Source of the DNA: Candidatus Acidiferrales bacterium
GTDB lineage: Bacteria; Acidobacteriota; Terriglobia; Acidiferrales; UBA7541
Assembly: GCA_035934015.1 (NCBI GenBank)
Contig: DASYYH010000016.1
Coordinates: 248,001 to 312,000, forward strand
DNA: 64,000 bases
Direction of reading: 5' to 3'
The notes beneath the pieces were generated by a model that saw only the letters and a list, made by a program, of their open reading frames with translations, did not search any database and had not been told where the DNA came from. Below are positions 2,732-20,333 of the stretch, piece after piece. A program made the translations under genes and the position numbers. Numbering within the stretch: the stretch's first letter is position 1; the number at the start of each line of letters is the position of its first letter.

Positions 2732-5128
2732 ATGGAGTCCCGAACCACATTCCAGCCGAAATCGGATCATCGCTCCGACGATGAGCAGGATCCCCGCGCC
2801 CGCCAGGAACGGCCGCGCAATCCCGTTTTTTGGCGCGTCGAAGGGAGCCTGCTCAATCTGACCGCCGTCCGGCCTGTAGGCTTTTTTGCGTGGAACGCGC
2901 AGAGTTTTCTCGAGCGATGGACGCGCCGCGGCGGAATGCTCATTCTGGCCGTCGCGCGGCCGATTCTCTATCTGACGAATCGCGCCATGGCCACGCGGCT
3001 CCTGCACACAATCCTGCGCGGCGTCAGCCGCGATCGCCTCGACGTTCTCGGCGATGAATATTTCACTTACATATTGAAGCCAGCTCTGAAGCCGCGCGGG
3101 GTGGAAGAATTGAAAAAGGCGCAGGAGCGCGGCGAAGAAATTGTTCTCGTCAGCCAGGGACTCGACCACGTGATGCGGCCGCTGGCGAAATACCTGGGTG
3201 TGAAATTCTTGATTTCCAACCGTCTGGAATTTCGTGATGGTATGGCCACGGGGCGATTGATCGATCCGGTGATTCGGCCGCGCGGGCCGCTGGCACGCCT
3301 GACGGGAAGCGCTCCCAACGGCCAAGTGGACCGGGCGCGATTAGCCAAGAATCTTGGGTTCGCACGGCGCCCGGAAATTGTGGAAGCCGCCAGGGAACCT
3401 GCATCGCAGGCTCCCTGCAGGACTTTCCTGCGCGTCGTGCATTGCAAACCGGAGACCAACATTGAGCGGCTCTCTGTGCGGGAGGCATTGCGCGGCAAAA
3501 ACATTTTGCTGGCAGGCGCAACGGGGTTCATCGGAAAAGTGTGGCTGGTGAATTTGCTCACGGATGTGCCAGAGATCGGAAAAGTTTTTGTTCTCGTCCG
3601 CCGGCGGAAAACGACCACAGCCGCACAGCGATTTCGAAAAATTTTGGAGGAGTCGCCGCTCTTCGAAGTGCTGGCGCGACGATGGGGGACGCAATTCGAA
3701 GAACTTTTGGCGAAGCATGTCGAAGTGGTCGACGGCGATTTGAGCAAGCCAGGCCTGGGACTCGACGACGCTGCACGCGCACGACTGGCACGGACGCTCG
3801 ATCTGGTTATCAACAGTTCCGGCCTGACCGATTTCAATCCCGACCTGCGCGACGCTCTTTCCGCGAATGTGGATTCCACCGCGCATTTAATCCAATTCAT
3901 GCACGCGACGGACCACGCGGCACTATTGCACCTTTCGACGTGCTACGTCACGGGAGAACGCGACGGACGGATCAGCGAAACTCTCGTGGCAAATTACAAT
4001 CCGGCCAATGTCGCAGGATTCGACGCGGAAAAAGAATGGCAATCGCTACAGGGGATGATTCGCGATACGGAGGCGCAGGCCGACAGCGCGATGGTGACGG
4101 ACGAATTGCGCAAGAGCGCCATCGAGAAGCCCACGGCGGCCAAAGGTCTGGGCGGCGCGGCGCTCGATAATCAGATTCGCAAGAACCGCACGCGGTGGCT
4201 GCGGCAAACGCTGATGGATGCAGGGACGCGGCGCGCGAATGAACTCGGCTGGCCCAACACATACACATTAACGAAGGGCCTGGCCGAATCGCTCCTCGTG
4301 AAGCGCGGCGCGGGATTGCCAGTTGCCATTGTGAGGCCGTCCATTGTCGAATCGTCGCTCGACAAGCCATTCCGCGGATGGAATGAAGGAATCAACACTT
4401 CGGCTTCGCTCTCGTATTTGCTCGGAACCTATTTCCGGCAATTACCTACGAACGAGCGGAAGTGCCTGGATATCATTCCCGTTGACCAGGTAACGCGCGG
4501 GATGACGCTGGTCGCCGCGGCGCTGATCGAACGCAAACACCAACCGCTCTATCATCTGGCAACTTCCGTCACGAATCCTTGCAACATGCGGCGTTCGATA
4601 GAACTCACCAGCCTGGGGCACAGAAAATTCTACCGTACACAGGACGGCTTCAAGCACTGGCTCCGGTCACGCTTCGACGCGATTCCCGTGTCAAAAACGC
4701 GATACGAAAAACTTTCCGCGCCCGCGCAGAAGGCCATCGTACAAGCGATCAATCGCGGAGTTTCGAGCGTGGGAATCAACAACGCGCCTCTGGTGCGGCG
4801 CGAACGAGAACTCGAGCGTGTCATCAAATTGATTCGCTTGTTCGAGCCATTCATTTTGCATAACGAACACACGTTCGAAGCGCTTAATGTGGAACGGCTC
4901 TCTGCGGCGCTGCCGTCCGAAGAACAAGCCGATTTCGGATACGATTCACGCTCGATCGACTGGTGCGACTACTGGGTGAATGTGCACATTCCGGCGCTGC
5001 GCAAGTGGTGTTATCCTCTCATCGAAGGCCGCTCTGTGGAGACGCGCAACGATGGAAAAGTGCCTCCCATGGGACAGCCAAACGCGGACGCAGCGACGGG
5101 ACAAAGCGTGTCCGCGGCAGCGCCGTGA
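2732..5128 (+). CDS. degenerate HAD domain fused to fatty acyl reductase (male-sterility type SDR)
   Basis: A 798-residue, two-part protein. Residues about 30-230 follow the HAD-IB (SerB-like) phosphatase pattern, but the nucleophile motif normally reading DxDGT is WRVEGSLL near residue 34, so both catalytic aspartates are gone. From residue 255 there is a Rossmann reductase domain with GATGFIG at 262-268 and Y511-x3-K515 as the catalytic pair, followed by a C-terminal region like the male-sterility domain of fatty acyl-CoA reductases. Expected reaction: NADPH reduction of an acyl thioester to aldehyde or alcohol. It opens a co-directional lipid gene cluster and is followed after 12 bases by a second SDR. 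No clear Shine-Dalgarno precedes the ATG, so the start could be slightly downstream. Confidence 0.75.
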   Translation: MESRTTFQPKSDHRSDDEQDPRARQERPRNPVFWRVEGSLLNLTAVRPVGFFAWNAQSFLERWTRRGGMLILAVARPILYLTNRAMATRLLHTILRGVSRDRLDVLGDEYFTYILKPALKPRGVEELKKAQERGEEIVLVSQGLDHVMRPLAKYLGVKFLISNRLEFRDGMATGRLIDPVIRPRGPLARLTGSAPNGQVDRARLAKNLGFARRPEIVEAAREPASQAPCRTFLRVVHCKPETNIERLSVREALRGKNILLAGATGFIGKVWLVNLLTDVPEIGKVFVLVRRRKTTTAAQRFRKILEESPLFEVLARRWGTQFEELLAKHVEVVDGDLSKPGLGLDDAARARLARTLDLVINSSGLTDFNPDLRDALSANVDSTAHLIQFMHATDHAALLHLSTCYVTGERDGRISETLVANYNPANVAGFDAEKEWQSLQGMIRDTEAQADSAMVTDELRKSAIEKPTAAKGLGGAALDNQIRKNRTRWLRQTLMDAGTRRANELGWPNTYTLTKGLAESLLVKRGAGLPVAIVRPSIVESSLDKPFRGWNEGINTSASLSYLLGTYFRQLPTNERKCLDIIPVDQVTRGMTLVAAALIERKHQPLYHLATSVTNPCNMRRSIELTSLGHRKFYRTQDGFKHWLRSRFDAIPVSKTRYEKLSAPAQKAIVQAINRGVSSVGINNAPLVRRERELERVIKLIRLFEPFILHNEHTFEALNVERLSAALPSEEQADFGYDSRSIDWCDYWVNVHIPALRKWCYPLIEGRSVETRNDGKVPPMGQPNADAATGQSVSAAAP

Positions 5129-5140
5129 GACCTTCGAACC

Positions 5141-6277
5141 GTGGCCATCTTCCTTACCGGATCAACCGGCTATATTGGCGCGCACATCGCCGCAAACCTG
5201 CTTGGAGACAGCAGCGAACCGCTGAACTTGCTGGTGCGCGCAAGAAATTCGCAGGAAGCCAAGGAACGACTGTGGCACGCGCTGCAACTGCACATGAGTT
5301 TTCCGCAATTCCGCGAATTTCTCGATTCGCGTTTGCAGATTTTTCTTGGCGATTTGACCGGCGCGAACTTTGGCCTCGAAGATAACGCCTACCGCCAGTT
5401 GGTGCGGTCGACCGAGTCGATCATCCACTGCGCAGCTTCACTGAACCGCAAATCCGAGAAGAGCTGCCTGAATGTGAACCTGCGTGGCACGCTGCAGGTC
5501 ATCCAGCTCGGCATGCGCGCACGCGATGAACATGGCCTGCGGCGATTCAGCCACGTGAGTACGGTGGCTGTAGCGGGCCAGCGGCAAAACGAAATCGTGG
5601 AAGAGGATTCGTCGATCGATTGGAATCGCTCAGACTACGATCCCTACGCGCGGACGAAAAAATTCTGCGAATACATGTTGGCCGAACTTTTGCCCGACGT
5701 GCCGCGAACGATTTTTCGTCCCAGCATCGTGCTGGGAGATAGCCGACGGCCAGAGACAAATCAGTTCGACATGGTGCAGGCATTTGTGTTTCTCGCAGGA
5801 CTGCCCTTGCTGCCATTCCGGCCGGACGATCGCGTGGACATTGTGCCAGTGGATTATGTGGCTAACGCAATTACGACTTTGCACCAAAAGGAAAAGACGG
5901 CGCACGAGATCTATCACTTGTCATCGGGAGCGGAATCGGAAACGTACCGGCAATTGACGCTGGCGCTCGCCGAAGCGCAGGGGAAACGTCCGCCAGTATT
6001 TGTGCCATCGCTCGAGCAGCCGACAGCAAGCACTGTTAATTTCGCGGCAGGAAAATTCGGCAAAGCGGGAAAATTGGCGACATTGCTGAAAGTTTTCTTG
6101 CCGTACTTGCGATGGAATACGGTTTTTGACAACACGCGCGTGGTCTCCGAAATGGGATGCACACCGGATCCATTTTCGAAATACTGCTATCCGCTGCTGA
6201 AATTCAGCCGTGAAAACCATTTCACGTACCCATATCGAAGCTGGCCGCAAGAAGCCGCGCAGGAAATTCCGCGATGA
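5141..6277 (+). CDS. extended SDR / thioester-reductase-like NAD(P)-binding protein
   Basis: A 378-residue extended short-chain dehydrogenase. The nucleotide-binding motif GSTGYIG lies at residues 7-13, and a YxxxK pair occurs in YARTK near residue 168. The overall layout (AANLLG, later [10 protein letters not shown]) matches thioester-reductase and NAD-epimerase relatives that act on acyl chains or carrier-bound acids. The start is GTG, 12 bases after the acyl reductase, and the stop overlaps the next gene by four bases (ATGA), so translation is probably coupled. It may reduce the same acyl substrate a second time or act on a different intermediate; the exact reaction is not resolved. Confidence 0.8.
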
Positions 6278-7686
6278 TGGATTTTCTGCTGGAGGCCTGG
6301 GTCGCCGGGTCGATCGAGTGGGCGAAATTCACGTGGATGCTCGGACGAGGAAAAAGATGGCAGCCAGGCGAAAAATTGCGGCTGCTTTTTGCGTGCTACT
6401 GCGGGGCGAGGAATACGGGATCGGATCTGCGCGTCGAGGAAATTCTGCGGCAGGTGCGGCGCGTTCTCGGCGATGAAAATGTGGATTTGGCAGTGATGAC
6501 GCAGGATTTCGATCTGACGCGCGGCTATTTTCAGGGCACGCGGCAGGTGCGATTGCCGGACGTCTTCCCGCCATTTCTGAACCGCGAAACGCCGCAATAC
6601 GACGGCGTGGTGGCATGCGAAGGGTCGATGTTCAAGAGCAAGTTCGCGAACGCGCTGACGACGATGATGATCGGCTCGCTGGCGCTGGCTTCGGCACGCA
6701 ACCGGCTTTCCGTGGGATACGGCGGGGAAGCGGGCCACATGGATCCGCTCGTCGAGAAAATGTGCAAACACTATTGCCGCGACTCGATCGTGATCACGCG
6801 AAGCGAGGAATCGCAGGCGCTTCTTGGCAAACTGGGAATCCCCACGGAACTTGGCACAGACACGGCGTGGACATTCGAGCCGCGCCCTGCGGAATACGGG
6901 CAAAAAGTCTTGCGCGAGGCCGGCTGGGACGGGACGACGCCGGTGCTCGTGCTTTGCCCTATCAATCCTTTCTGGTGGCCGGTGAAGGCGTCCGTGGCAA
7001 AGGCGGCGGCGCGAATGCTGACGGGCGCTTATAAGGAGAGCCACTACCGCTCGATTTATTTTCACCGCTCGGGACGCAGCGTCGAAAGCGCATATAGCCG
7101 TTATATCCATGCGTTTGCCCGCGGCGTCGATCGCTTTCGGAGGGAGCACAAAGTTTTTACTGTGTGCGTCGGGATGGAAATGCTGGATCGCAATGCCTGT
7201 GAGCGCGTGGCCGCGCAACTGGGCGGTGCGCCGATTTTTTGCTCGGACCAATACGACATGTACGAGATCGTGAGCATTTTGCGCGCCTGCCATCTGATGG
7301 TGTCTTCGCGCTACCACGCGATTGTCACGTCGATGCCCGCGGGCGTGCCTTCGCTGGGCGTTACGATGGATGAACGAATTCGCAATTTGATGCGGCAGCG
7401 CGGGCATTCACACTTGACGCTTAGCGTGGACGACGCCGAACTGGAAGATAAATTGTCCGGCGCGCTCGAAAACTTGTGGCGAGAGAGAGAAAATGTGGGA
7501 GAAGGAATTGGGCGCACGGTTGCGCAGAATTTGCGGCTGATGTCGAGGATGGGAATGTATTTCGAGGGGTTTGTCGCGCAGCAATATCCGGAATTTCCGC
7601 TGCGCAAGGGGGCGCTAAACTGGGAAGAGTATTTGCCGCCGCTTAGCGCAAACTTGCAGAGGCTGCTGGAAAAGTACGGCGCATGA
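6274..7686 (+). CDS. polysaccharide pyruvyl transferase family protein
   Basis: A 470-residue protein that looks like the polysaccharide pyruvyl transferase (CsaB/GumL) family. It has an N-terminal Rossmann-like part beginning near [13 protein letters not shown], a central region, and a C-terminal part with SSRYHAIV followed by [13 protein letters not shown], which is the typical family signature around residues 345-370. Such enzymes usually add pyruvate ketals to sugars or wall polymers. Here it sits between acyl reductases and an acyl-CoA synthetase, overlapping both neighbours by four bases, so it probably modifies a head group made by this cluster. The acceptor is unknown. Confidence 0.75.
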
Positions 7687-9350
7687 AATTTCTTGCCGAT
7701 ATTTTTCAAAGGCTGGAGCGCGCCGACGACGCAATTGTTCTTCAGGAAATCCATGGACAAGAAATCACGAAGGCATCCGGCAAGGAATTGCTGGAGCTGA
7801 CCGCGAAGGCCGGTAGATTTTTGGACGCGGCGAGTCCGCGGATTCATGCCGGCGACCGCTGCGCACTGCTCGGGCCGAATAGCATTCGCTGGGCCGCGGC
7901 GGATTTAGCGCTGATGTCCAGGGGGATTATTGTCGTGCCGCTTTACGCGCGCCAGGAACCGGCGGAATTAGCTGCTATGGTTCGCGACAGCGGAGCCACG
8001 GCGATCCTGTGCGACGGAGCGCAATTGCGCGATGCGGTGTTGCGTTCGTTTCCCGATGCACCGGCGATTTTTCTCTTCGACGAAGTGTTTGCGCATAAAC
8101 CGGCAGAATCGATCCACACTGACAAAGCAACTGCCGGTGGACCTGTTCCGCTCACGATTATTTATACGTCGGGAACCTCCGGCGAGGCGAAGGGCGTGGT
8201 GCTCAACGACTGCAACGTCGATCACATGCTGGCGTGCACGACGGAGCGGCTGAATCAGTTGATGGGGCCGCGGAACGAGCCAGAACAGGTGTTTCATTGG
8301 ACGCCTTTCAACTTTGCAGCGTCGTGGATTTCGTTGCTGAGCTCGCTTTCGCGAAATAGCGTTGTGTCGCTTTCGACTGACATCACAAAGCTCGCAGATG
8401 AAATACGCATCGCCGCGCCGAATTATTTTCTGAATGTGCCGACGCTGCTCGAACGCGTCCGAACAAAGATCGAAGAAAACATCCGCGGACGAGGTGGATG
8501 GATTGCGAATGTATTTTTCAAGGCGAAGAGCGCGTACCTGTGCCGCGGAACGAAGGAAGCGAAGTTCTCAGACATCTTCTGGCTAAAGATCGCCGGGGCG
8601 TTGATTTTTCCGACGATCCGCAAAGGAATGGGGCCGAATTTGAAGGCGCTGATCTGTGGCTCGGCGCCGCTTTCCGTGGAAACACAGAACTTTTTCATGA
8701 TGCTAGGGATTCAGGTATTGCAGGCCTATGGGCTGACGGAAACGACGGCGATATGCACGATGGACGATCCGGCGCGCGTCGAGCCGGGGTATGTGGGCCA
8801 TGCAATTCCGGGGCTGGAGATGAAAATCGACGACAATCAGGAAATCCTCGTGCGCGGACCGAACGTTTTTTCGGGCTACTGGAAGCGCCCGGAGGATACG
8901 GCGAAAGTGTTGCGCGACGGCTGGTTCCACACCGGCGACCAGGGAAAAATGAACGAACGCGGCAACTGGAAAATCACCGGACGGATCAAGAATCTAATTA
9001 TTTTGAATTCAGGGCACAACGTCGCGCCCGAGCCTCTGGAGGAAGATCTCACGAGTCTGCTGCCGCGCGCGCAACAGGTGGTGCTTGTTGGCAACGAGCG
9101 CAGTTATCTGGCCGCAGTCATTACGACGGAACCAAACTCCGGACTGAACGAGGCGGCGGTCTCGGCGGCGCTTGAGAAGATGAATGCTCGATTGCCGCAC
9201 TATCGTCAAATCCGCGCGTTCCACCTGGAGCGAAAGCCCTTCACGATCGAGAGCGGATTATTGACGGCCAATGGTAAACTCAGGCGCGACGCAGTTGCGG
9301 CGCACCTAAAGTCACAGATCGAAGAGCTTTATCGAAAGCGGCATGCATGA
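7683..9350 (+). CDS. AMP-binding long-chain acyl-CoA/ACP synthetase
   Basis: An acyl-adenylate-forming enzyme of 555 residues. The ATP-binding loop YTSGTSGEAKG lies near residues 161-171, the adenine motif YGLTET near 349, and the hinge region GWFHTGDQGK near 413. A C-terminal lysine occurs in TANGKLRRD near residue 530, so it appears catalytically complete. It would activate a carboxylic acid, probably a fatty acid, to acyl-AMP and then a thioester. It overlaps the genes on both sides by four bases. A second AMP ligase lies 3.2 kb downstream, so the cluster activates either two acids or one acid twice. Confidence 0.88.
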   Translation: MKFLADIFQRLERADDAIVLQEIHGQEITKASGKELLELTAKAGRFLDAASPRIHAGDRCALLGPNSIRWAAADLALMSRGIIVVPLYARQEPAELAAMVRDSGATAILCDGAQLRDAVLRSFPDAPAIFLFDEVFAHKPAESIHTDKATAGGPVPLTIIYTSGTSGEAKGVVLNDCNVDHMLACTTERLNQLMGPRNEPEQVFHWTPFNFAASWISLLSSLSRNSVVSLSTDITKLADEIRIAAPNYFLNVPTLLERVRTKIEENIRGRGGWIANVFFKAKSAYLCRGTKEAKFSDIFWLKIAGALIFPTIRKGMGPNLKALICGSAPLSVETQNFFMMLGIQVLQAYGLTETTAICTMDDPARVEPGYVGHAIPGLEMKIDDNQEILVRGPNVFSGYWKRPEDTAKVLRDGWFHTGDQGKMNERGNWKITGRIKNLIILNSGHNVAPEPLEEDLTSLLPRAQQVVLVGNERSYLAAVITTEPNSGLNEAAVSAALEKMNARLPHYRQIRAFHLERKPFTIESGLLTANGKLRRDAVAAHLKSQIEELYRKRHA

Positions 9351-10150
9351 GCGGATTCCGGGGCGAAACGTTATCCTGGGAAATCAGCGGCGGAATCATC
9401 GAGCTGAAACTGCATCGCGAGCCGTGCAATGAAATCGGCTTGAAGACGCTCGAAGAGCTCGAAGAATTTTCCGTTGCGCTTGAGGCGACAAAGAAGAGCG
9501 CCGGCGCGCTGATCATCTATAGCGCGATGACGGCGGGATTCAGCGCCGGCGCGGACCTCCGTGAACTTTACCGCCGTTCTCAGCCGCTTCCGGCGGCTCA
9601 GCGTGTCACAGCGGTCCGTGATTTTCTGCAAAGGATTCATCACGTCTTGAATGCGCTCGATGATGCACCTTTGACGACGATTGCCGCCGTTCACGGAGTC
9701 ACATTCGGCGGCGGACTAGAATTGGCGCTGGCGTGCGACATGATTATCGCCGACAAAACGGCGCGATTTGCTTTCCCGGAGCTGCGCCTGGGATTGATCC
9801 CAGGATTTGGCGGGATCCCCCGTCTGAAGCGCGATCTTGGCAACGAGATCGTTCGCGATCTGGTGCTTACCGGCCGCAGCTTCAACGCCACGAAAGCGCA
9901 GGCCATAGGACTGGTTAGCCAAGTTGCGGGGGAAAACGAAGCGCTGCGTGCGGCACGCGCGACCGCGGCGCAGGTTTGCAAATTTGATCGCGACACGGCG
10001 ATTGTGGCCAAGCGATTCATCAAAAAAGTGCCCTATGAGGAGTTGCGCACGGAAATCGAGATTTTCTGCGAGCTTTTTGGCAGGCCTGCGGTCGAGGAGG
10101 GCTTGCGGAAATTCGCGGAGAGCACGGACGCAATGCCGTATCTGCCCTAG
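9347..10150 (+). CDS. enoyl-CoA hydratase/isomerase (crotonase) family protein
   Basis: A 267-residue crotonase-fold enzyme. Both oxyanion-hole regions are present (FSAGADLREL and TFGGGLEL), and the two glutamates of classical enoyl-CoA hydratase are kept in GGGLE and in PELRLGLIPG, so true hydratase activity is possible. It overlaps the preceding synthetase by four bases. Its role inside a lipid-assembly cluster could be to process an unsaturated acyl thioester. Isomerase or hydrolase activity are alternatives for this family. Confidence 0.88.
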   Translation: MSGFRGETLSWEISGGIIELKLHREPCNEIGLKTLEELEEFSVALEATKKSAGALIIYSAMTAGFSAGADLRELYRRSQPLPAAQRVTAVRDFLQRIHHVLNALDDAPLTTIAAVHGVTFGGGLELALACDMIIADKTARFAFPELRLGLIPGFGGIPRLKRDLGNEIVRDLVLTGRSFNATKAQAIGLVSQVAGENEALRAARATAAQVCKFDRDTAIVAKRFIKKVPYEELRTEIEIFCELFGRPAVEEGLRKFAESTDAMPYLP

Positions 10151-10175
10151 AGATTCCGGGACTGGAGCGTACGAG

Positions 10176-12251
10176 ATGAACACGAGCGGACCTGAGAACA
10201 AACGAACACCACAAACGAAGGAGCAGCGATTTACGAAGCGTGCCGCATACGTGACGATTCTATTTGCCACGGGAATGATTTTCGCTGCACAGGCGCCGGT
10301 CGCGCAGGCGCAAAAACGCCGTATTCAAATTTCCGACATGGCAAAAATCGTGCACCCCGCCGATCCGCAAATTTCGCCGGACGACAAATCGATCGCCGTG
10401 GTCGTGGCGCACTCGAACATGAAGGAAGACCGTACGGACAGCGAAATCATGCTGATCGATATCGCGACAGGTTCGCAGCGCTCGCTGACCTATGGACGCA
10501 AAGGCGCGAGTTCGCCGCGATGGTCGCCGAATGGAGATCGCCTCGCGTTTCTGGCCATGGTCGGCAGTGACAAAGACGCCCAGCCGCAAATTTTCGTTCT
10601 GCGCATGGATGGCGGCGACGCCCAACAGATCACGAACGCTCCCGATGGAGTCGAACAATTTGCGTGGCGGCCGGATGGGACTGCATTTGCGTTTGTGACA
10701 CCGGACCCTGCCGATAAGAAAGCCATTGAGACGCATCACGACGCGTTTCAAGTGGGCGATACGGATTACCTGGAAACGGCGGCAGCAGAATCTTCGCATG
10801 TTTGGTTGATTTCGGCTGCGGGCGGCGAAGCCAAGCGGCTGACTTCCGGCACATGGAGCCTGCCGATTGTCTTTCCGCCGAACCCGCCATCGTCGCCGCT
10901 TTCGTGGTCGCCGGATGGGAAATCCATTGTCATTACGCGACAGGAGACGCCCGAACCAGGCGACGGCGATGAAACAACACTGCAGATTCTCGACGTGGCG
11001 GCAGGGCAAATGCGCAAGCTGACGTCGCACGACAAGTTTGAAAGCACCGGCGTGTATTCGCCGGATGGGTCAAAGATCGCGTATTGGTATGCGCGGGAAG
11101 GGGATCCGAACAACGAAAATGAAATTTATGTCACCTCCAGCGACAGCGGAGATGGCAACGATGCGACGCGAGGAATTGACCGCAATGTGCAGCGCGCGAT
11201 TTGGATGCCAGATGGAAAATCGCTGTTGGTTGGCGGACACGACGGCACAACGACATCGTTGTGGTTGCAACCGCTAAGAGGGCCAGCGCGAAAGCTCGAC
11301 CTCGGTGACATCGAGCCCTCGTGGAGCTTCTGGATTGACGCTATGGTTGGTCCGAAAGGCGATATTGCGTTTACCGGAAATACACCGGGACGACCGACGG
11401 AGCTCTATTACATGACTTCGCCAGGGACCGCGCCGAAACGGTTGACGAACTACAACGCGGAGACGGCAGCGCTCGATTTGGGAAAAGCACAAAGCATCGA
11501 ATGGCAGGCCGATGGCTTTCCTGAGGACGGCGTGCTCACGTATCCTCCGGATTTCGAGCAGAGCAAAAAATATCCGCTCGTGCTGCTGATTCACGGCGGC
11601 CCTCAGGCGAGCTCGACGCTTTCGTTCAGCCTGCTGGCACAGGTGATCGCAGCGGAGGGATATTTCGTGTTCTCACCAAACTACCGAGGCAGCGATAATC
11701 TGGGGAACGCATATCAGCGCGCCATTTACCGCGACGCTGGAGCGGGACCCGGACGCGATGTGATGGCCGGGCTGGCCGAAATCGAAAAAATTGGTTTTAT
11801 TGACACGGACAAAATCGCGGTGACGGGATGGTCGTACGGCGGGTATATGACTTCGTGGATGATCAGCCACTATCACATCTGGAAGGCGGCCGTTTCCGGC
11901 GCGGCGGTCAATGATTTGACGATGGAGGCGACGGTCTCCGACGGGAACCGGACGGATTATTATTCGATGGGCGGGTCGCCGTGGGCGGGCGACAACTGGA
12001 AAATTTACCGCGACGAATCGCCGATCACTTATGCGGCACAAATCAAAACGCCGACGCTGATTCTGTGCGACGTGGGCGATTTTCGCGTGCCCATCGTGCA
12101 ATCGTACGAGATGTATCACGCGCTGAAAGACAATGGAGTGACGACGCAGTTTTGGGCGTATCCGGTCGGCGGGCATTTTCCGGGGGATCCGGTGCGTGCG
12201 GCGGATGTAATGACGCGCTGGGTAGGCTGGGTGAATCAATATTTGAAATAG
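10176..12251 (+). CDS. secreted S9-family prolyl oligopeptidase-type serine peptidase
   Basis: A 691-residue peptidase with an N-terminal signal-like segment (about residues 24-46, ending AQAQ). Next comes a WD40/TolB-like beta-propeller with repeated SPDGK or SPNGD motifs, then an alpha/beta-hydrolase domain. The triad is visible as S553 in GWSYGG, D635 in GDFRVP and H667 in GGHFPG. I start at the ATG at 10176 because the longer open frame runs through the crotonase gene. It cleaves short peptides or acyl-peptides, probably in the periplasm. It lies within the lipid cluster, 25 bases after the crotonase, but has no obvious functional link to it. Confidence 0.88.
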   Translation: MNTSGPENKRTPQTKEQRFTKRAAYVTILFATGMIFAAQAPVAQAQKRRIQISDMAKIVHPADPQISPDDKSIAVVVAHSNMKEDRTDSEIMLIDIATGSQRSLTYGRKGASSPRWSPNGDRLAFLAMVGSDKDAQPQIFVLRMDGGDAQQITNAPDGVEQFAWRPDGTAFAFVTPDPADKKAIETHHDAFQVGDTDYLETAAAESSHVWLISAAGGEAKRLTSGTWSLPIVFPPNPPSSPLSWSPDGKSIVITRQETPEPGDGDETTLQILDVAAGQMRKLTSHDKFESTGVYSPDGSKIAYWYAREGDPNNENEIYVTSSDSGDGNDATRGIDRNVQRAIWMPDGKSLLVGGHDGTTTSLWLQPLRGPARKLDLGDIEPSWSFWIDAMVGPKGDIAFTGNTPGRPTELYYMTSPGTAPKRLTNYNAETAALDLGKAQSIEWQADGFPEDGVLTYPPDFEQSKKYPLVLLIHGGPQASSTLSFSLLAQVIAAEGYFVFSPNYRGSDNLGNAYQRAIYRDAGAGPGRDVMAGLAEIEKIGFIDTDKIAVTGWSYGGYMTSWMISHYHIWKAAVSGAAVNDLTMEATVSDGNRTDYYSMGGSPWAGDNWKIYRDESPITYAAQIKTPTLILCDVGDFRVPIVQSYEMYHALKDNGVTTQFWAYPVGGHFPGDPVRAADVMTRWVGWVNQYLK

Positions 12252-12350
12252 CCCGGACTCGCGGCGCGACACGGAAAATTTGCGGCATAAAATTTGCGAG
12301 AGAACGGGCGCGTGGCGCACGGCAGTGGAATTCACCTAAAATAGAGGACT

Positions 12351-12593
12351 ATGCGATCGCTTCAAGAAGTGACGGACGAAGTCCTGCAACTGGCGGCTGC
12401 GCATTTCAAAGTGCCGCGCGAACAGCTTGCGCCGGACGATGATTTTTTCAAAAAGCTGAATATCAACAGTCTGCAGGCGCTCGACTTGCTGACACACATC
12501 GAGAATCACTTCCACATTGAATTGCCGGACTACGAATTGCAGGGCATCAGCGACTTCCGCACGCTCGCCGCGCGCATCCAAGCGCGCCTCTGA
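12351..12593 (+). CDS. acyl carrier protein
   Basis: An 80-residue free-standing acyl carrier protein. S40 in NINSLQAL is the expected 4'-phosphopantetheine attachment site, and the surrounding helices (DDDFFKKL before, ELPDYELQ after) match the ACP fold. Its stop overlaps the start of the following AMP ligase by one base (TGATG), a strong sign that the ligase loads this carrier. It is distinct from a housekeeping AcpP, which normally has DSLD at the attachment site. Confidence 0.88.
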
Positions 12594-14302
12594 TGCTCGA
12601 CCTCCATGAATATTCCTCGCTGGGCGCGGCTTTGCGCGCCGCGCTCGAACGCTGGCCGAATGAAATTTGCCTGATCGAAGCGGACCGCGAACGCGAAAAT
12701 TGCCGACTAACGTACCAGCAGTTCAAAGAAGCAGCCTTGCCGCTCGCGCGCGCGATGCAGGATTCCGGATTTGCCGCGGGCGGGCGCGTGTCGATCATTA
12801 TGACGAATCAGTCGAAGTGGCTGATTTCCGCATACGCGATTTTTTATTGCGGCGGCGTGCTCGTGCCGCTCGATTACAAGCTCACGGCGCGGGAGCACTT
12901 GCAACTTTTGGCGCACTCCCAATCCGACGTGCTCGTCACGGAATATTACCTTTGGCGCGCGATTACGCAGGCCGAAGGCTTCACGGATCTGAAGCTGAAG
13001 ACCGTCCTAGTAACGGAAGCTCCGGCGAAAGCGGATTTGCGAGGTGCAAACCGCTGGGAAGAGTTTCACGGCAATGGCGATCCCGTTTTTGTGGAACGGA
13101 AGCGCACGGACTGGGCATCAATCGTTTATTCGTCTGGGACCGGCGGGCAGCCAAAGGGCTGCGTGATGACGCATGAGAATTACCTCGAACAATGCGCGTC
13201 GCTCGCTTCGCTTTTTCCTTTTTGGCCTGGCGTGCGCTATTTGAGCATCCTGCCGACGAATCATGCGATCGATTTCATGATCGGGTTCATCGGACCGTTC
13301 GTCTGCGGTGCAGCAGTGGTGCACTTGCGGACGCTAAGACCGGAATTCATCCGCGAGGCATTCACGCGCTATCGCATCACGTACATCACCGTAGTGCCGA
13401 TGGTGCTGAAAAATCTCGAGCGCGCCATGCGCCAGAAGTTCGAGGAACTCCCTAAATCGCGACGCATCATGCTGGGCTGGCTAATCGCCGTGAATCGCGC
13501 GCTCACTCGCCGACGGCCGCATGTGCACCTGAGCAGATTGCTGCTGGGCGATATTCACAAGGCATTTGGAGGCGAACTGCGTGCGATTTTTGTCGGAGGC
13601 GCGTTCACGGAACCGGCGACGCTGCAATTTTTTTACGACCTGGGAATCCCCGTGGGGAATGGATATGGATTGACAGAGGCGGGAACGGTGATCACGCTGA
13701 ACGACTTCAAACCCTTTCGCGCCGATACCGTCGGGAAGCCGCTGCCGGGCACGGAAGTTCGCATTGTGAGTCCAGGCCCAGACGGAATTGGAGAAGTCGC
13801 CGCGCATGGCAAGACGATCATGTCGCACTACCTCGACGATCGGGAGATGACCGCGGCGACGATTGTGGACGGCTGGCTGATGACAGGCGACCTTGGGAGA
13901 ATGGACGCGATGGGGCATTTGCAGCTTTTCGGGCGCAAGAAAAATATGATCGTCACCGAAGGCGGCAAGAATATATACCCGGAAGATATCGAAAACGCGT
14001 TCGAAGGCCTCCCATTGAAGGAATTTTGCATTTTTGCTGCAAATTACGTGTGGCCGCAACGAACAATGCTTGGTGAGCAATTAGTCTTGGTGCTGCGGCT
14101 CGATGACGCCTCACAATTCACGGACGAATTGCGCACGCAAATCATTGAACGCAACCGGCGATTGCCCGATTTCAAGCGTGTTGGCGGAAGCCTCGTCTGG
14201 ACGCGCGATTTCCCGCGCACGGCATCGCTGAAAATCAAGCGCGAGGCACTGGCCGACGAGATTCGAAATGTGACCGATAGCTCGGCTATGATTTCGGTGT
14301 GA
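12593..14302 (+). CDS. AMP-binding acyl-activating enzyme, probable acyl-ACP ligase
   Basis: A 569-residue adenylate-forming ligase with the P-loop [11 protein letters not shown] near residues 179-189, YGLTEAG near 359, the hinge [10 protein letters not shown] near 425, and a C-terminal lysine in ASLKIKRE near 551. It starts one base inside the stop of the acyl carrier protein gene, so the two are translationally coupled and this ligase most likely charges that carrier. The substrate is probably a fatty or aryl acid. It differs clearly from the first AMP ligase of the cluster and is not a recent duplicate. Confidence 0.87.
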
Positions 14303-14312
14303 GGGCTCGCGA

Positions 14313-15233
14313 GTGACGAAACGTTTTTTTGCACTGGTGAATCCGGCGGCAGGCGGAGGCAAGTGCGGCAAACTCGCGCCAGCGGCGCTCGCGAAGTTGC
14401 GCGCTTCGGGCATTGAAATTGATGTTGCGGAAACGCACGCGCCGGGTCATGCCACGGAGCTTGTCCGCGAGGCGCAGAAGCTGGGACATCGAAATTTTCT
14501 TTCCGTCGGCGGGGACGGCACGTCCTACGAAATCGTGAACGGAATTTTCCCTTTGTCTCCGGGAGATTCCGGCGAACGGCGGGCGCTGGCGTTCCTGCCG
14601 CTGGGCACGGGCAACTCGTTTTTGCGGGATTTTCTGGATCATCGCGGCGTGGAGAGTGTGGAAAGCGTCGCGCGTGCGATTTTGAGCGGACAGCGCCGCA
14701 CTTGCGACGTGATTCGGCTAAAGCACGCGACGGGGGAAGTTCACTACATCAATTTATTGACGCTCGGATTTGCCGCGGACGCGGCGGAATTCGCAAACCG
14801 GCACCTTAAGGCCTTTGGTTACACCGGCTATGCGCTCAGTATCCTGGCGTGCCTTGCGCGCCTGAATCGCCGCGCGTTTGCTCTGCGCACAGATGGCGCG
14901 ACGGAATTCGACCGCCGGCGCTGCCTCTTTCTTGCATTCAGCAACACGAAATTCACGGGCGGAAACATGATGATCACGCCCAACGCGGACTCTTCCGACG
15001 GGCTGATCGAATACGTCCGCTGGGGGCCGATTGGACGGATCGCCTTGCTGCGCAATCTGCACACGCTATTCGATGGGACGCACATTCATCATCCGCTGGC
15101 GTCGCGCGCCGCAGTGCGGGAGGTGGAATTCGCGCTCGACGAGCCCGTAAGTGTAACAATCGACGGAGAGAGCCTGCGCCTGAAATGCGAGCGGCTGAGT
15201 ATTCTGCCGGGTGCACTGGACGTTGTCATATGA
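14313..15233 (+). CDS. diacylglycerol/sphingosine kinase-family lipid kinase
   Basis: A 306-residue member of the DagK/YegS family. The N-terminus ([14 protein letters not shown]) and the ATP-binding GGDGT near residue 69 are typical, and NGIFPLSPG is followed by LPLGTGNSF. It would phosphorylate a lipid alcohol such as diacylglycerol or a long-chain base. Translation starts at GTG ten bases after the AMP ligase, and its stop overlaps the next acyltransferase gene by four bases. With the acyl reductase upstream, a plausible substrate is an alcohol or ether-type lipid, but that is inference. Confidence 0.85.
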
Positions 15234-15985
15234 GATCCGCATACCTCAAAGTGCGCTCGGCGGTGTTATGGGCCGCCAGCGGGGTGCATTTTTTCGTGGT
15301 TTGCACGCTGCTCGTCGCGCTGGGAATGATCGCCGATCCGCGCAAGAACGACCGCCCGCAGCGAATTTTCTTCCGCAACATTTTGCGGCTGGCGGGAGTG
15401 AGATTTGAAGTCCAGCGAGCGCCGGGATTCGACGCGCAGCGCACGAGTCTTTTCGTCTGCAATCATGTGAATATTTTCGATCCGTTTGTGATTTATTCTG
15501 CGATTCCGCAATTCGTGCGCGGGTTCGAGCTGGCCTCGCATTTCAAGGTGCCCGCGTACGGATGGATGATGGGCCGGTTCGGAAATGTCCCCGTACCGGA
15601 TGAAAACGACCGCAGCCGCGCGTCGCTCGAATTGATGACGCGGAAGGCGAGAAATTCGTTGGATTCCGGAATCAGCCTGATTGCGTTTGCAGAAGGCTCG
15701 CGGACGCGTACGGGGCACGTTGGAGCATTCCAGAAGGGTGTCTTTCGGCTGGCGGTCAGCTTTGGCGTGCCGATTGTGCCGATGAGCATCGTAGGATCTT
15801 ACGAATTTCATCGCACCGGCAATTGGATGCTGAATCCGGGGAAAATCACGGTCATCCTGCACGATACGATCGAGACAAAGGGGATGAACAAGACGGACGC
15901 GGAGGGATTGCGAGACCGCGTACATGCCATCGTCTCCGCACCTGTGGAAGAACATATTGCAAGGCTTGCGAAGGACTCGCTGTAG
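15230..15985 (+). CDS. PlsC-type lysophospholipid acyltransferase
   Basis: A 251-residue acyltransferase starting at the ATG that overlaps the lipid kinase stop by four bases; a longer upstream frame runs antiparallel to family expectations and is rejected. The HX4D catalytic pair is H79 and D84 in NHVNIFD, and the substrate-binding EGSRTRTG lies near residue 150. One hydrophobic N-terminal segment (about residues 11-34) would anchor it in the membrane. The expected reaction is transfer of an acyl group to a lysophosphatidate-like lipid. As the last gene of the forward cluster, it fits phospholipid assembly after the kinase step. Confidence 0.88.
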
Positions 15986-16025
15986 TCATCTTGCGGAATT
16001 CGTTGCGGAAAAAGGAAAATGAAAA

Positions 16026-16667
16026 CTAAAAGGGCTCACGGTGACCGGGGATCATTCGCCCTGCGCGAATTTCCTGTCCGGTATAGATGATTCGATGAAT
16101 CACCGTCAGCGTCGAGAGCGCGGCAATGACCCACAAGACCGGCGCCATGCGGTCAAATACGCCACCGATAATCAGGAGTACGAGACGTTCCGGGCGCTCC
16201 ATAAATCCCACTTTGCAGAGCGGAATCAGCGACTCTGCGCGCGCGCGCGAATAACTGACCATGAAGGAACTGGCCATGGCTACCGCAGCCAGCGCCATAT
16301 AGAACGGTCGATTGATCAGCGTGTAATGAACGACGAGGCCCATGTACAGGCCGAGGTCGGAGTAACGGTCCAGCGTGGAATCCAAAAACGCGCCAAATGC
16401 CGTCACTCGACCGGCGCGGCGCGCGACTTGGCCATCGGCCATGTCGAGAAAGCCCGCAAGAAATAACACAGCCGCCGCGCTGAGAAAATTGCCGTACGCA
16501 AACAAAACCGCCGCCCAAACATTGACGGCCATACCTACCACCGTCAAAACGTTTGGCGTGATTCCAGTGGCGGCGAGACCGCTGACCACGTGGCGAAGAA
16601 GCCATCCCGCGCCGGAACCGATCCAATGTGTAGCGGGCTGCCAAAATGGAGCCTTTGAATCTTTCAT
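16026..16667 (-). CDS. CDP-alcohol phosphatidyltransferase family protein
   Basis: A 213-residue integral membrane enzyme with the full family signature: D75, D78-G79, A82-R83, G92, D96 and D100. About five or six hydrophobic segments are visible. It exchanges CMP of a CDP-activated lipid for an alcohol such as inositol phosphate or glycerol phosphate. It is convergent with the lipid cluster, ending 41 bases from the PlsC gene, and lies 114 bases downstream of the VPS10-like gene on the same strand, with a terminator in between. It could supply a head group to the cluster product; the alcohol is not known. Confidence 0.85.
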   Translation of the reverse strand: MKDSKAPFWQPATHWIGSGAGWLLRHVVSGLAATGITPNVLTVVGMAVNVWAAVLFAYGNFLSAAAVLFLAGFLDMADGQVARRAGRVTAFGAFLDSTLDRYSDLGLYMGLVVHYTLINRPFYMALAAVAMASSFMVSYSRARAESLIPLCKVGFMERPERLVLLIIGGVFDRMAPVLWVIAALSTLTVIHRIIYTGQEIRAGRMIPGHREPF

Positions 16668-16781: not shown

Positions 16782-19700
16782 CTACATCGAGGAATGATTC
16801 GCTCCGCCTCCATGTGGCGCGGTGACGGAGATTGCCGGAATGTTGTCGTTGCGAATGCGCCGGTTGAGATCGGCGAGATCTTTGTCTCTGAGCTGGTGAT
16901 ACGTCGCCATTTGGGCGTCAATCTGCTTGGTCAGAAGATCGAAAACCTCGTGCGTGGAAGGCGTCGGAGCTGTGTCCGCGCTTTCCACTGTTCCGTCAAC
17001 GTCCTCCAACTGATTGATGAGCATGATGGGATAGTTCAGCGGGTCTTCACCGCTCTCCGATTTGGGCTGAATCAACGCGTCTTCGACGTCCGTCAGTTTC
17101 TTGTCGAGTTCCTTCGCTGCGTCGGCGACGGATTTCTCCTTGTCATTACCAGTGAGCCGTTTCTGCAGATCGGCAAGCTGCGTGTGAAGATCACGAATTT
17201 GGTTCACGGCGGCGTTGGCCGCGCTGACATGTTCGCGAATCTGCAGACTGAAATTGAGCTGCTGTTGCAGATCCGCAGTGGACACGTGGACGCGAGGATC
17301 TTCTTCGAGCGTGAGCGGAGCTGTGTAACTCTGACCCGCGACGGTCAGTTTCACCTGATAGTTCCCCGGAACTGCGTATGGTCCGGCTGCCCCACCGCCC
17401 CAGCCCACAATGCCGGGAACCCTTGTTGCCGCCTCGTAGCGCAAATCCCACTCGAAACGGTTCAAGCCTGCCTTTGCCGGAAGGCTCGCGCCGCCGCCCC
17501 CAAAGAAGCCGCCTCTTCTTCTGCCTCCGGCGGCCTCGGACTTGCTCGAATACTTGCGGACGACTTTGCCATCCGAGCCGAGGATTTCGAGCGTGATTGG
17601 ATCTTTTGGCGCGGTCTTCAGCGAATAATCAATCACGGCGCCGAAAGACGGATTCGAGCCTGCGGCCGCTCCACCGGGCAACCGGAAGCCGAAGCCATGG
17701 AAACGATATGCGGTTTCGGGCTTGAAGAGATGCACATTCTCGTTGAGGACATCCGCGTTCATCTGGCGGAGCGGCGTGATGTCGTCGAGCGCCCAAAACG
17801 CACGGCCGTGCGTGGCGAGAATGAGATCGTTTCCGTGAATCGTCATGTCGTGAACGGGCACGGTCGGCAAATCCAACTGAAGCGATTGCCAGTTTGCGCC
17901 GTCGTCAAACGAGACATAAATTCCGGTTTCGGTCCCGGCGAAAAGCAAACCCTTGCGGACGGCATCTTCGCGAATCGCGTGCGTGAAGATGTTTTCGGGA
18001 AGGCCGTTCACGATCTTCGTCCACGTCTTGCCGTAATCGGTAGTCTTGTAGAGATACGGATGGAAATCGTCCCAACGGCTGCGATCTGCGGCCATGTAGG
18101 CGGTCCCGGCCGCGTACGGAGAGGGATCGATAATGTCGATGCGGCTCCAGTCGGGAAGATCCTTGGGCGTCACATCGGCCCACGTTTTCCCGCCGTCGCG
18201 CGTGACGTGAACAAGGCCATCATCACTGCCCGCCCAAATCAGGCCGCGTTCGACCGGCGATTCCGCGATGGCGAAAATCGTGTCGTAGTATTCGACGCTG
18301 GTATTGTCCTGCTCAAGGGGGCCGCCTGACGAAACTTGTTTGGCCTTGTCATTGCGCGTCAGATCCGGGCTGATGACGGTCCAGTGTTGGCCCTGATCCG
18401 TGCTTTTGAAGATGACCTGTGCGCCGTGATAAATCGTGTTGGAGTCGAACGGCGACATGGCAATCGGCGCAGTCCATTGGAAGCGATACTTCGTGTCGAT
18501 GGCGCCGTGACCCATAGGATTGAGAGGCCAAGCGGTGATGTCCTGCTCCTGGCCGTTGGCTTTGTTGAACCGCGTGATCAATCCATCGTAAGAGCCAGCG
18601 TAAACGATATTCGGATTCTTCGGATCCGGAACGACGAAGCCGCTTTCGCCGCCGCCCACGTCGTACCAATCTTTGTCCGTAATGGCGAAGCCGTCGGTGC
18701 GGCTGGCGATGGCGACGGTGGTGTTGTCCTGCTGCGCGCCGTAAATGTAGTAGTTGAATTGATTGTCCGTGGCGACGTGATAGAACTCCGCCGTCGGCTG
18801 ATTATCCTCAGAAGACCACGACTCGCCGCCATCTTCGGAAATCGTCGCGCCGCCGTCGTCGCATTCGATCATTCGGCTTGTGTTCGTGGGATCGATCCAC
18901 AAATCGTGACGATCGCCGTGAGGCGCATCGAGGCTTTTGAACGTCTGGCCGCCGTCGGTTGAGCGATACATTCCCGTATTGAGGATGTAGACCGTGTCCG
19001 TCTGCTTTGGATCAGCAAAAATGTGCATGAAGTACCAGGCCCGCTGCGTATAGTCGTGATTACCGTTGATGAATTGCCACGTTTCGCCGCCGTCGTCGGA
19101 GCGATAGAGGCCACGCTTGTCCGCTTCGATGAGCGCATAGACGCGCTCGCCATTGGCTCCCACGGCGATTCCGATGCGGCCCATCACGCCCGTCGGCAGG
19201 CCATGGCCTTCGAGTTGCTTCCACGTCGACCCGCCGTCGGTCGACTTGTAAATTCCGCTGCCCGGGCCGCCGCTGACAAAACCCCACGGGGTGCGCAACT
19301 CCTGGTACATCGCGGCATAGAGCGTGTGCGGATTCGCGGAGGCGAAAGTGAGATCTACAGCGCCCGTCTTGTCGTCTTTGTAGAGGACTTTTTGCCAGGT
19401 TTTGCCGGCATCAGTGGAGCGAAAGACGCCGCGTTCTTCATTCGGGCCGAACGCGTGGCCAATGGCGGCGACAAAGACAATGTTCGGATTCGTGGGGTCG
19501 ATCAGGATTTTCGCGATGTGACGCGTGTCGTCGAGTCCGATGTGCGTCCACGTTTGTCCGCCGTCAACGGACTTGTACATCCCGTCGCCGTAGGAAATAT
19601 CGCCGCGCAGGCATGGTTCGCCGGTGCCGACATAGATCACGTTGGGATCTTGCGGGTCAACCGCAATGGCGCCGATGGACGAGACAGGCTCGTGCTGGAA

Positions 19701-19970
19701 GAGCGGCTTCCAGGAGATTCCGGCGTCCGTCGTCTTCCAGACGCCACCGGCGACCGAACCAAAATAAAATACGCTCGGATTGCCGATGACTCCGCTGACT
19801 GCTTCTGTGCGGCCGCCACGGAACGGGCCGACCTGGCGCCACGACATTCCAGCAAGCGAATCCTTGGCCAAGGTCTGCGCGACTGTTGGAACAGAAACGG
19901 CAAAACCAGCCATGACCAGAACCGCGACGGAAACGAAGAGGCTTGCTCTTGCTCGTAACATTGCTTGCAT
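16782..19970 (-). CDS. secreted VPS10/BNR-repeat glycosyl-hydrolase-like protein, copy 1
   Basis: A 1,062-residue exported protein. The signal peptide (residues about 1-32, ending TVAQ) is followed by many BNR/Asp-box-type blades with STDGG, TTDAG, SDDGGxTW and related motifs, typical of VPS10/sortilin-like propellers and GH74-like enzymes. A C-terminal part of about 250 residues has an immunoglobulin-like region and a predicted coiled coil. I start at 19970 because AGGAGG lies six bases before that ATG; 29 extra upstream codons are rejected. A homologue of similar length lies at 25.8 kb. No catalytic residues can be assigned, so binding and hydrolysis are both possible. Confidence 0.8.
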   Translation of the reverse strand: MQAMLRARASLFVSVAVLVMAGFAVSVPTVAQTLAKDSLAGMSWRQVGPFRGGRTEAVSGVIGNPSVFYFGSVAGGVWKTTDAGISWKPLFQHEPVSSIGAIAVDPQDPNVIYVGTGEPCLRGDISYGDGMYKSVDGGQTWTHIGLDDTRHIAKILIDPTNPNIVFVAAIGHAFGPNEERGVFRSTDAGKTWQKVLYKDDKTGAVDLTFASANPHTLYAAMYQELRTPWGFVSGGPGSGIYKSTDGGSTWKQLEGHGLPTGVMGRIGIAVGANGERVYALIEADKRGLYRSDDGGETWQFINGNHDYTQRAWYFMHIFADPKQTDTVYILNTGMYRSTDGGQTFKSLDAPHGDRHDLWIDPTNTSRMIECDDGGATISEDGGESWSSEDNQPTAEFYHVATDNQFNYYIYGAQQDNTTVAIASRTDGFAITDKDWYDVGGGESGFVVPDPKNPNIVYAGSYDGLITRFNKANGQEQDITAWPLNPMGHGAIDTKYRFQWTAPIAMSPFDSNTIYHGAQVIFKSTDQGQHWTVISPDLTRNDKAKQVSSGGPLEQDNTSVEYYDTIFAIAESPVERGLIWAGSDDGLVHVTRDGGKTWADVTPKDLPDWSRIDIIDPSPYAAGTAYMAADRSRWDDFHPYLYKTTDYGKTWTKIVNGLPENIFTHAIREDAVRKGLLFAGTETGIYVSFDDGANWQSLQLDLPTVPVHDMTIHGNDLILATHGRAFWALDDITPLRQMNADVLNENVHLFKPETAYRFHGFGFRLPGGAAAGSNPSFGAVIDYSLKTAPKDPITLEILGSDGKVVRKYSSKSEAAGGRRRGGFFGGGGASLPAKAGLNRFEWDLRYEAATRVPGIVGWGGGAAGPYAVPGNYQVKLTVAGQSYTAPLTLEEDPRVHVSTADLQQQLNFSLQIREHVSAANAAVNQIRDLHTQLADLQKRLTGNDKEKSVADAAKELDKKLTDVEDALIQPKSESGEDPLNYPIMLINQLEDVDGTVESADTAPTPSTHEVFDLLTKQIDAQMATYHQLRDKDLADLNRRIRNDNIPAISVTAPHGGGANHSSM

Positions 19971-20333
19971 CCAACTCCTCCTATGCCAGATAAACATCGG
20001 AAAATCGTTCGCCAAAGCGCGAATACTCCGGTTCCGCGCGCTGCAACTCAAATTCAACCAGCGGCAAATCCTAAACGCCAGATCTGCAAACGGTCCGCCG
20101 TCGAAGAGGCGTATGTATATCCCATTCGCGGCAAAAAATGAATACTACAGTTGATCGTATCGGAGCCGACGAGCGCACACCCCGCAGAGCACAGCGCAAT
20201 TGCCCACAGCAAGGTTAGAAGGACGGCGGCAACGGGAGCCGCGTTACAAAAATCGTCGAGCGCCACGCTCAAAATCCGCGATTATAATGTTCTGCTAAGT
20301 TTTCCATCCCAGATTGTTTAGTGGAGAGCAAGC

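Follow-up and report, generated by a model that had tools for sequence, protein, structure and literature searches.

A conserved eight-gene operon of uncultured Acidobacteria as a candidate for a phosphoenolpyruvate-based route to ether lipids

A 64,000-nucleotide stretch of the genome of a Candidatus Acidiferrales bacterium (assembly GCA_035934015.1, contig DASYYH010000016.1, positions 248,001 to 312,000), hereafter referred to as the window, contains eight lipid-type genes that recur together in acidobacterial genomes far beyond chance, including one of the polysaccharide pyruvyl transferase family (PPT). The product of these genes is probably a lipid derived from a fatty alcohol, and the chances that it is an ether lipid appear evenly balanced; the most likely product would be an alkylglycerol ether phospholipid. 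As a tentative account of its synthesis, we propose a route, with substrates and step order inferred from the sequences, in which phosphoenolpyruvate (PEP) would supply the three carbons of the glycerol. How ether bonds are formed in the membrane lipids of most Acidobacteria is unclear (PMC11868695, PMC10087280, PMC13274423). Ether lipids from soil and peat serve widely as climate proxies, and the operon is a concrete, conserved ether-lipid candidate in uncultured lineages from peat, permafrost and soil.

In the window genome (acidobacterial, 3.37 Mb in 28 contigs), the eight genes belong to a series of nine co-directional lipid-type genes at positions 2732–15985, interrupted solely by an S9 peptidase gene and followed by a converging gene on the minus strand. 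The first gene encodes a fusion of a HAD domain with an alcohol-forming fatty acyl reductase (HAD-FAR); FAR2 is a second reductase, of the short-chain dehydrogenase/reductase (SDR) superfamily. The order is as follows (gene starts are predicted):

2732–3466, plus strand: pseudo-HAD domain, N-terminal part of the HAD-FAR fusion (Pfam HAD, 61 bits)
3467–5128, plus strand: FAR, alcohol-forming fatty acyl reductase with Sterile domain (NAD_binding_4, 186 bits; Sterile, 38 bits)
5141–6277, plus strand: FAR2, thioester-reductase-type SDR (NAD_binding_4, 159 bits; TIGR01746, 136 bits)
6274–7686, plus strand: PPT, polysaccharide pyruvyl transferase family (PF04230, 32.8 bits, cut-off 25.3)
7683–9350, plus strand: AMP1, AMP-forming acyl ligase 1 (AMP-binding, 169 bits, plus AMP-binding_C_3)
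9347–10150, plus strand: ECH, enoyl-CoA hydratase (ECH_1, 147 bits)
10176–12251, plus strand: S9 peptidase with a likely signal peptide (Pfam match)
12351–12593, plus strand: ACP, free acyl carrier protein (PP-binding, 44 bits)
12593–14302, plus strand: AMP2, AMP-forming acyl ligase 2 (AMP-binding, 225 bits)
14313–15233, plus strand: DAGK, YegS/DAGK-type lipid kinase (DAGK_cat, 85 bits; YegS_C, 89 bits)
15230–15985, plus strand: PlsC-type acyltransferase, accessory (Acyltransferase, 63 bits)
16026–16667, minus strand: CDP-alcohol phosphotransferase, accessory (PF01066, 63 bits; NF040950, 156 bits, cut-off 180)

All genes named in the original prediction, which had described this region as a lipid cluster, lie where it placed them and have clear Pfam matches, the nearby CDP-alcohol transferase (16667–16026, minus strand) among them. 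Its inventory was nevertheless incomplete: the acyl reductase that it listed is present (2732–5128), but it overlooked both the second reductase, FAR2 (5141–6277), and the enoyl-CoA hydratase (9347–10150). The overlaps of one to four bases that it reported were confirmed, with 4-base overlaps chaining FAR2/PPT, PPT/AMP1 and AMP1/ECH and also joining DAGK to PlsC, and a 1-base overlap at ACP/AMP2. The cluster is almost certainly one functional operon.

Conservation of the cluster in acidobacterial relatives, a check that the original prediction had suggested, was borne out. Searching GTDB genomes with the PPT profile yielded 357 relatives; we examined the best 80 of these 357 loci, 46 of which have enough flanking sequence to cover the whole cluster (full-context loci). 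HAD-FAR, AMP1, ECH, ACP, AMP2 and DAGK were each found beside PPT in 46 of 46, and FAR2 in 45, which leaves an intact core of eight genes, a count that derives from the loci closest to the search query. The recurring order is HADFAR-FAR2-PPT-AMP1-ECH-ACP-AMP2-DAGK, and two rearranged loci among the best 80 are the exceptions. These 80 loci all come from acidobacterial metagenome-assembled genomes, many of them from peat, permafrost and soil and including Candidatus Sulfotelmatobacter. In a separate set of 61 relatives, the HAD-FAR protein is encoded in 37; the neighbourhoods fetched from thirteen of these carriers, in several families of the class, have the same gene order with variations, one of the thirteen being without the second half of the cluster. 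A phylum-wide search found PPT matches in 17 of 247 genomes (7 strong), and three of the 7 strong ones, at 62–66% identity, belong to genomes outside the class. Because this between-class identity is about the same as the similarity within the class, it suggests that the PPT cluster has moved by transfer between classes. Plasmid searches for close relatives of PPT or FAR yielded a single distant FAR, from Streptomyces, and weak matches to the PPT family.

PPT is an invariant, central gene of the core, and it overlaps or abuts the FAR2 gene in all 99 loci in which both are readable. The original prediction had called the pyruvyl transferase and the S9 peptidase unexpected members of the cluster, a description that fails for PPT and holds for the peptidase. 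The S9 gene was seen only in the window and in L026, the sole congener with a locus extending over that position, and is missing from other lineages; we rejected it as a pathway member and regard it as a genus-level insertion. The closest solved relative of FAR2 is the reductase domain of MxaA (4u7w), a thioester reductase that acts through to the alcohol, and the T, Y and K residues of FAR2 are invariant (90/90).

The PEP-binding positions of CsaB are R148, H308 and K328 (docking and mutagenesis) and S88 and R306 (docking), and its K328R variant retains activity (PMC10435577). Mapped by motif spacing and by profile alignment with E. coli WcaK, the PPT equivalents of CsaB S88, R148, R306, H308 and K328 are S118, R176, R346, H348 and R368, all invariant in 99/99 sequences; the hhalign comparison with WcaK gave an E value of 1.3e-4 and brought the R, H, S and K positions into register. 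The Lys-to-Arg exchange at R368 is of a kind tolerated by CsaB. The predicted model of PPT (pLDDT 84) has a GT-B-type fold and, in a fold search, matched UDP-GlcNAc 2-epimerases and glycosyltransferases with Z up to 22, Pvg1p not being among the 50 matches listed; this search settles the fold class only. No relative turned up when the PDB was searched by sequence with the PPT profile. PPT shares with CsaB, WcaK and Pvg1p (PF04230) the predicted GT-B-type fold and all five PEP positions, one Lys being Arg, but has an N-terminal helix before the matched region; its gene belongs to a lipid operon whose core contains no sugar genes, and is invariably coupled to that of a thioester reductase. We propose that PPT could be an enolpyruvyl transferase acting on a fatty alcohol.

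In alignments of 71–99 sequences per protein, all core catalytic residues tested, except those of the HAD domain, are invariant or nearly so. The catalytic Lys (A10), one of several ligase residues compared, is present in AMP1 in all 86 rows covering that position and in AMP2 in 71/71; both catalytic Glu residues of ECH (84/84), the attachment Ser of ACP (84/84) and the GGDGT residues of DAGK (73/73) are retained, and the catalytic Y, K and T of FAR and its glycine motif vary little or not at all across 83 rows. The nearest relatives of ECH are solved hydratases, one match being the 3-hydroxypropionyl-CoA dehydratase 5zai; its chemistry on acryloyl-CoA provides a precedent for the hydration step proposed below. 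Motif I of the HAD domain reads WRVEGSL where the HAD proteins of elb operons (see below) have FYDLDGT or FYDLEGT, its nucleophile Asp is replaced by Arg in 79 of 81 loci and by Ser in the other two, and the distal Asp motif SDSxSDxPML of the elb proteins is absent. Because the nucleophile is replaced and the distal motif lost, the domain is a fixed, conserved pseudo-phosphatase fused to the reductase, and these residues rule it out as an active phosphatase of the ElbB kind.

The proposed route would start with AMP2 loading a fatty acid onto ACP and HAD-FAR reducing the acyl-ACP to a fatty alcohol, the dead HAD domain serving only for binding or as a scaffold. PPT would then transfer the enolpyruvyl group of PEP to the fatty alcohol to give a 2-alkoxyacrylate (enolpyruvyl ether); since a mono-alcohol has no second hydroxyl, a ketal would not be expected on chemical grounds. 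This is the chemistry of MurA, which forms an enol ether from PEP and an alcohol, although the two protein families are unrelated and the analogy is chemical only. AMP1 would form the CoA (or ACP) thioester of the 2-alkoxyacrylate, ECH would add water to its acryloyl double bond to yield a 2-O-alkylglyceroyl thioester, and FAR2 would reduce this to 2-O-alkylglycerol, to be phosphorylated by the DAGK-type kinase. Where present, PlsC could acylate the remaining hydroxyl, giving an ether phosphatidic acid, and the adjacent CDP-alcohol transferase, where found, may add a head group of the phospho-inositol type.

Several observations count for this PEP-based route. The invariant core is the enzyme set that it needs up to alkylglycerol phosphate, so that every core gene gets a job, whereas the generic steps (PlsC and the CDP-alcohol transferase) vary by lineage. 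The invariant or nearly invariant catalytic residues outside the HAD domain, the constant FAR2/PPT coupling, the retained PEP-binding positions, the solved relatives of FAR2 and ECH and the grouping of FAR with ElbD-type reductases (see below) count in the same direction. DUF2229 and LarA, known or suspected parts of ether-lipid synthesis, are absent from the window genome. The AGPS and PlsA/Ger routes also lead to glycerol ether lipids, but there is no AGPS-like gene in the cluster, and no DUF2229 (PlsA/Ger family) protein was found in the window genome, which rules out PlsA/Ger as its ether enzyme; DUF2229 proteins occur in 75 of 200 genomes of the class.

Other observations weigh against the route. 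PPT scores 61.8 bits against the CsaB model TIGR03609, whose cut-off is 213, and so does not reach the CsaB equivalog level, and the characterised members of its family form ketals on sugars, often lipid-linked ones (PMC6801904). The ECH, ligase and kinase families are promiscuous, and a product with a 2-O-alkyl group would be out of the ordinary. In three loci, HADFAR-FAR2-PPT-AMP1 are kept but ACP, ligase 2 and the kinase are not nearby, and two of these also have no orthologous ECH nearby. Finally, there are no named cultured strains among the best 80 of the 357 GTDB loci.

The middle of the operon could also be read with the known ketal chemistry of PPT kept. AMP1 would activate an enoic acid, ECH would convert it to a 3-hydroxyacyl-CoA, FAR2 would reduce this to a long-chain 1,3-diol, and PPT would close a six-membered pyruvate ketal, as on O4/O6 of hexoses. 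This scheme uses AMP1, ECH, FAR2 and PPT in order but leaves HAD-FAR, ACP and ligase 2 without a clear role except in a second chain, and we know of no long-chain 1,3-diol pyruvate-ketal lipid; we consider it very improbable.

If correct, the PEP-based route would represent a novel pathway to an ether lipid and put the pyruvyl transferase family to a new use. We have not found such a route described: literature searches for pyruvyl transferase with ether lipid, or for PEP with alkylglycerol, returned nothing relevant among the papers searched. More doubtful is the wider notion of a new ether-lipid route, with a PEP-built backbone and an sn-2 ether, that together with a Tes-like synthase could feed the synthesis of branched glycerol dialkyl glycerol tetraethers in uncultured soil and peat Acidobacteria. 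Even with a different product, eight invariant genes and a fixed pseudo-phosphatase merit a product assignment.

In Myxococcus, ether lipids depend on the elb operon, which is described as having a HAD protein and a multidomain ElbD (PMC9131029); several subdivision 4 genomes are reported to contain the whole operon (PMC10087280). The original prediction saw the cluster as a possible split version of ElbD, and our domain-by-domain comparison supports its overall interpretation in part. FAR, AMP-ligase, ACP and acyltransferase are here four separate genes and not a single polypeptide. Seven loci from one part of the phylum do encode these four modules as a fused protein of ~1475 aa, with a HAD gene and a LarA-type gene ahead of it and an epimerase-type SDR after it; they match the published elb layout, Pfam annotation having covered L076 out of the seven together with the LarA-like proteins of four other loci, and we label them SD4-type by inference. 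The LarA-like protein (PF09861, nickel-pincer lactate racemase family) was seen in the elb-type and split loci L076, L081, L091, L042 and L043; in L076 it occupies the position of ElbC, whose function the literature calls unknown.

A solved relative of FAR is 7eoz (155 bits), a plant enzyme. In a FAR tree that took in no M. xanthus sequence, the window-type FARs form one clade (100/100), and a 100/99 branch separates window-type, SD4-type ElbD and split FARs from 7eoz, a Streptomyces FAR and the FARs of DAGK-type ElbD proteins. The FAR domain belongs with the ElbD-type reductases, and the cluster HAD is homologous to the elb HAD. For the remaining modules, the prediction fared less well. In HMM comparisons, AMP2 scores 265–304 bits against ElbD ligases, compared with up to 208 for other ligases of the window genome, which favours ElbD, but the tree gives it no settled position; the scores of PlsC against ElbD do not exceed those against other PlsC proteins. 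No LarA-like protein (PF09861) was found in the window genome and no ElbE-type SDR in the cluster, whose SDR is of the thioester reductase type; proteins in the ElbE position gave no match to FAR2.

Two further observations concern ElbD-like architectures. L081–L087 form a second set with this architecture, mostly DAGK-adjacent; because their FAR domains are nearer to 7eoz than to SD4-type ElbD, the ElbD architecture may have arisen twice. In the window genome, three large AMP-ligase plus PlsC proteins are encoded outside the cluster, on G000:C8 (L184, L186) and C23 (L183), and the L184 protein closely resembles the ACP-ligase-PlsC proteins found at split elb-type loci.

In the set of 61 relatives, window-type FARs occur in 37 genomes and elb- or split-type FARs in 9, and no genome has both, an exclusion with a hypergeometric probability near 1e-4 (1.2e-4 computed with 36 and 9) in a count that ignores common descent. 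The corresponding class-level count is weaker, with only two candidates scored per genome. Within the same families, some genera have one type and others the other; together with the exclusion, this hints at a shared role. The cluster could be a split elb-like system, in which FAR makes the alcohol, an elb-like step forms the ether bond on a glycerol or dihydroxyacetone phosphate precursor, and PPT, AMP1, ECH and FAR2 modify head group or chain. Beyond the FAR clade, the homologous though dead HAD and this exclusion, such a system would be in keeping with the module types in common with elb (M. xanthus ElbA-E and the acidobacterial elb-type operons): FAR, HAD domain, AMP-ligase, ACP and PlsC, as well as DAGK, which several acidobacterial elb-type operons adjoin. 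We nevertheless find it unlikely. Unlike elb, the cluster has separate genes, a catalytically dead HAD and neither the LarA-like ElbC-position protein nor the ElbE-type SDR; the identity of ligase 2 as an ElbD ligase lacks tree support, and the additional, invariant FAR2, PPT, AMP1 and ECH genes would be left without a necessary role.

PlsC and the CDP-alcohol transferase are lineage-dependent accessories. Like the S9 peptidase gene, each was found in 0/46 full-context loci; PlsC is present in 12 loci and the CDP-alcohol transferase beside the cluster in 8, the window included in both counts, all in lineages nearer to the window. The latter enzyme resembles phosphatidylinositol-phosphate/archaetidylinositol-phosphate synthases (solved relatives 6h5a and 5d92). 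A Tes-like radical S-adenosylmethionine (SAM) protein is encoded in 57 of the 61 relatives and, in the window genome, at G000:C20:22617-24803 (L200, L210; NF045702, 326 bits, cut-off 450). Of 71 loci whose upstream sequence is long enough, 8 have its gene no further than ~6.1 kb upstream of HAD-FAR, and in two of these, L034 and L178, it is directly upstream (132 and 151 bp); in one genome, a myo-inositol-1-phosphate synthase gene precedes HAD-FAR at a distance of 67 bp. These Tes-like synthase and myo-inositol-1-phosphate synthase neighbours tie the operon to membrane lipids.

The same neighbours bear on two other explanations. The reductases, ligases and kinase could build the lipid anchor of a pyruvylated glycolipid or surface polymer, with PPT attaching a pyruvate ketal to inositol or to a sugar linked to a lipid. 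Both CsaB and WcfO use lipid-linked sugars as acceptors (PMC10435577, PMC6801904), PPT keeps the GT-B-type fold and the PEP residues, and both the inositol-type CDP-alcohol transferase in 8 loci and the single adjacent myo-inositol-1-phosphate synthase gene would fit; there is, however, no glycosyltransferase among the core genes, and with the universal PPT/thioester reductase overlap and the hydratase left unexplained, we judge this improbable. Alternatively, the operon might make a fatty-alcohol-based secondary metabolite or a storage or wax-type lipid, unrelated to membrane lipids. Its patchy occurrence in the phylum and the 62–66% identity between classes are as for transferred clusters, but the lipid kinase is part of the invariant core, PlsC and the CDP-alcohol transferase accompany the cluster in several lineages, and the Tes-like synthase directly upstream in two loci points to membrane lipids, which leaves only a slim chance for this explanation.

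The window genome's own myo-inositol-1-phosphate synthase gene is elsewhere (G000:C11, L209:7719-10914), directly 3' of a BchE-like radical SAM gene. Directly upstream of the operon, at positions 646–2616 of the window, are a PfkB-type sugar kinase gene and a ureide-permease/sugar-transport-like gene, a pair confined to the genus among the loci read. Downstream, the minus strand at 16782–20009 encodes a large protein with repeats whose sequence looks like that of a VPS10/sortilin-type beta-propeller and homologues of which are found downstream of the cluster in 13 of the 46 full-context GTDB loci, and positions 20334–21278 encode a rubrerythrin fused to a VIT1-like membrane domain.

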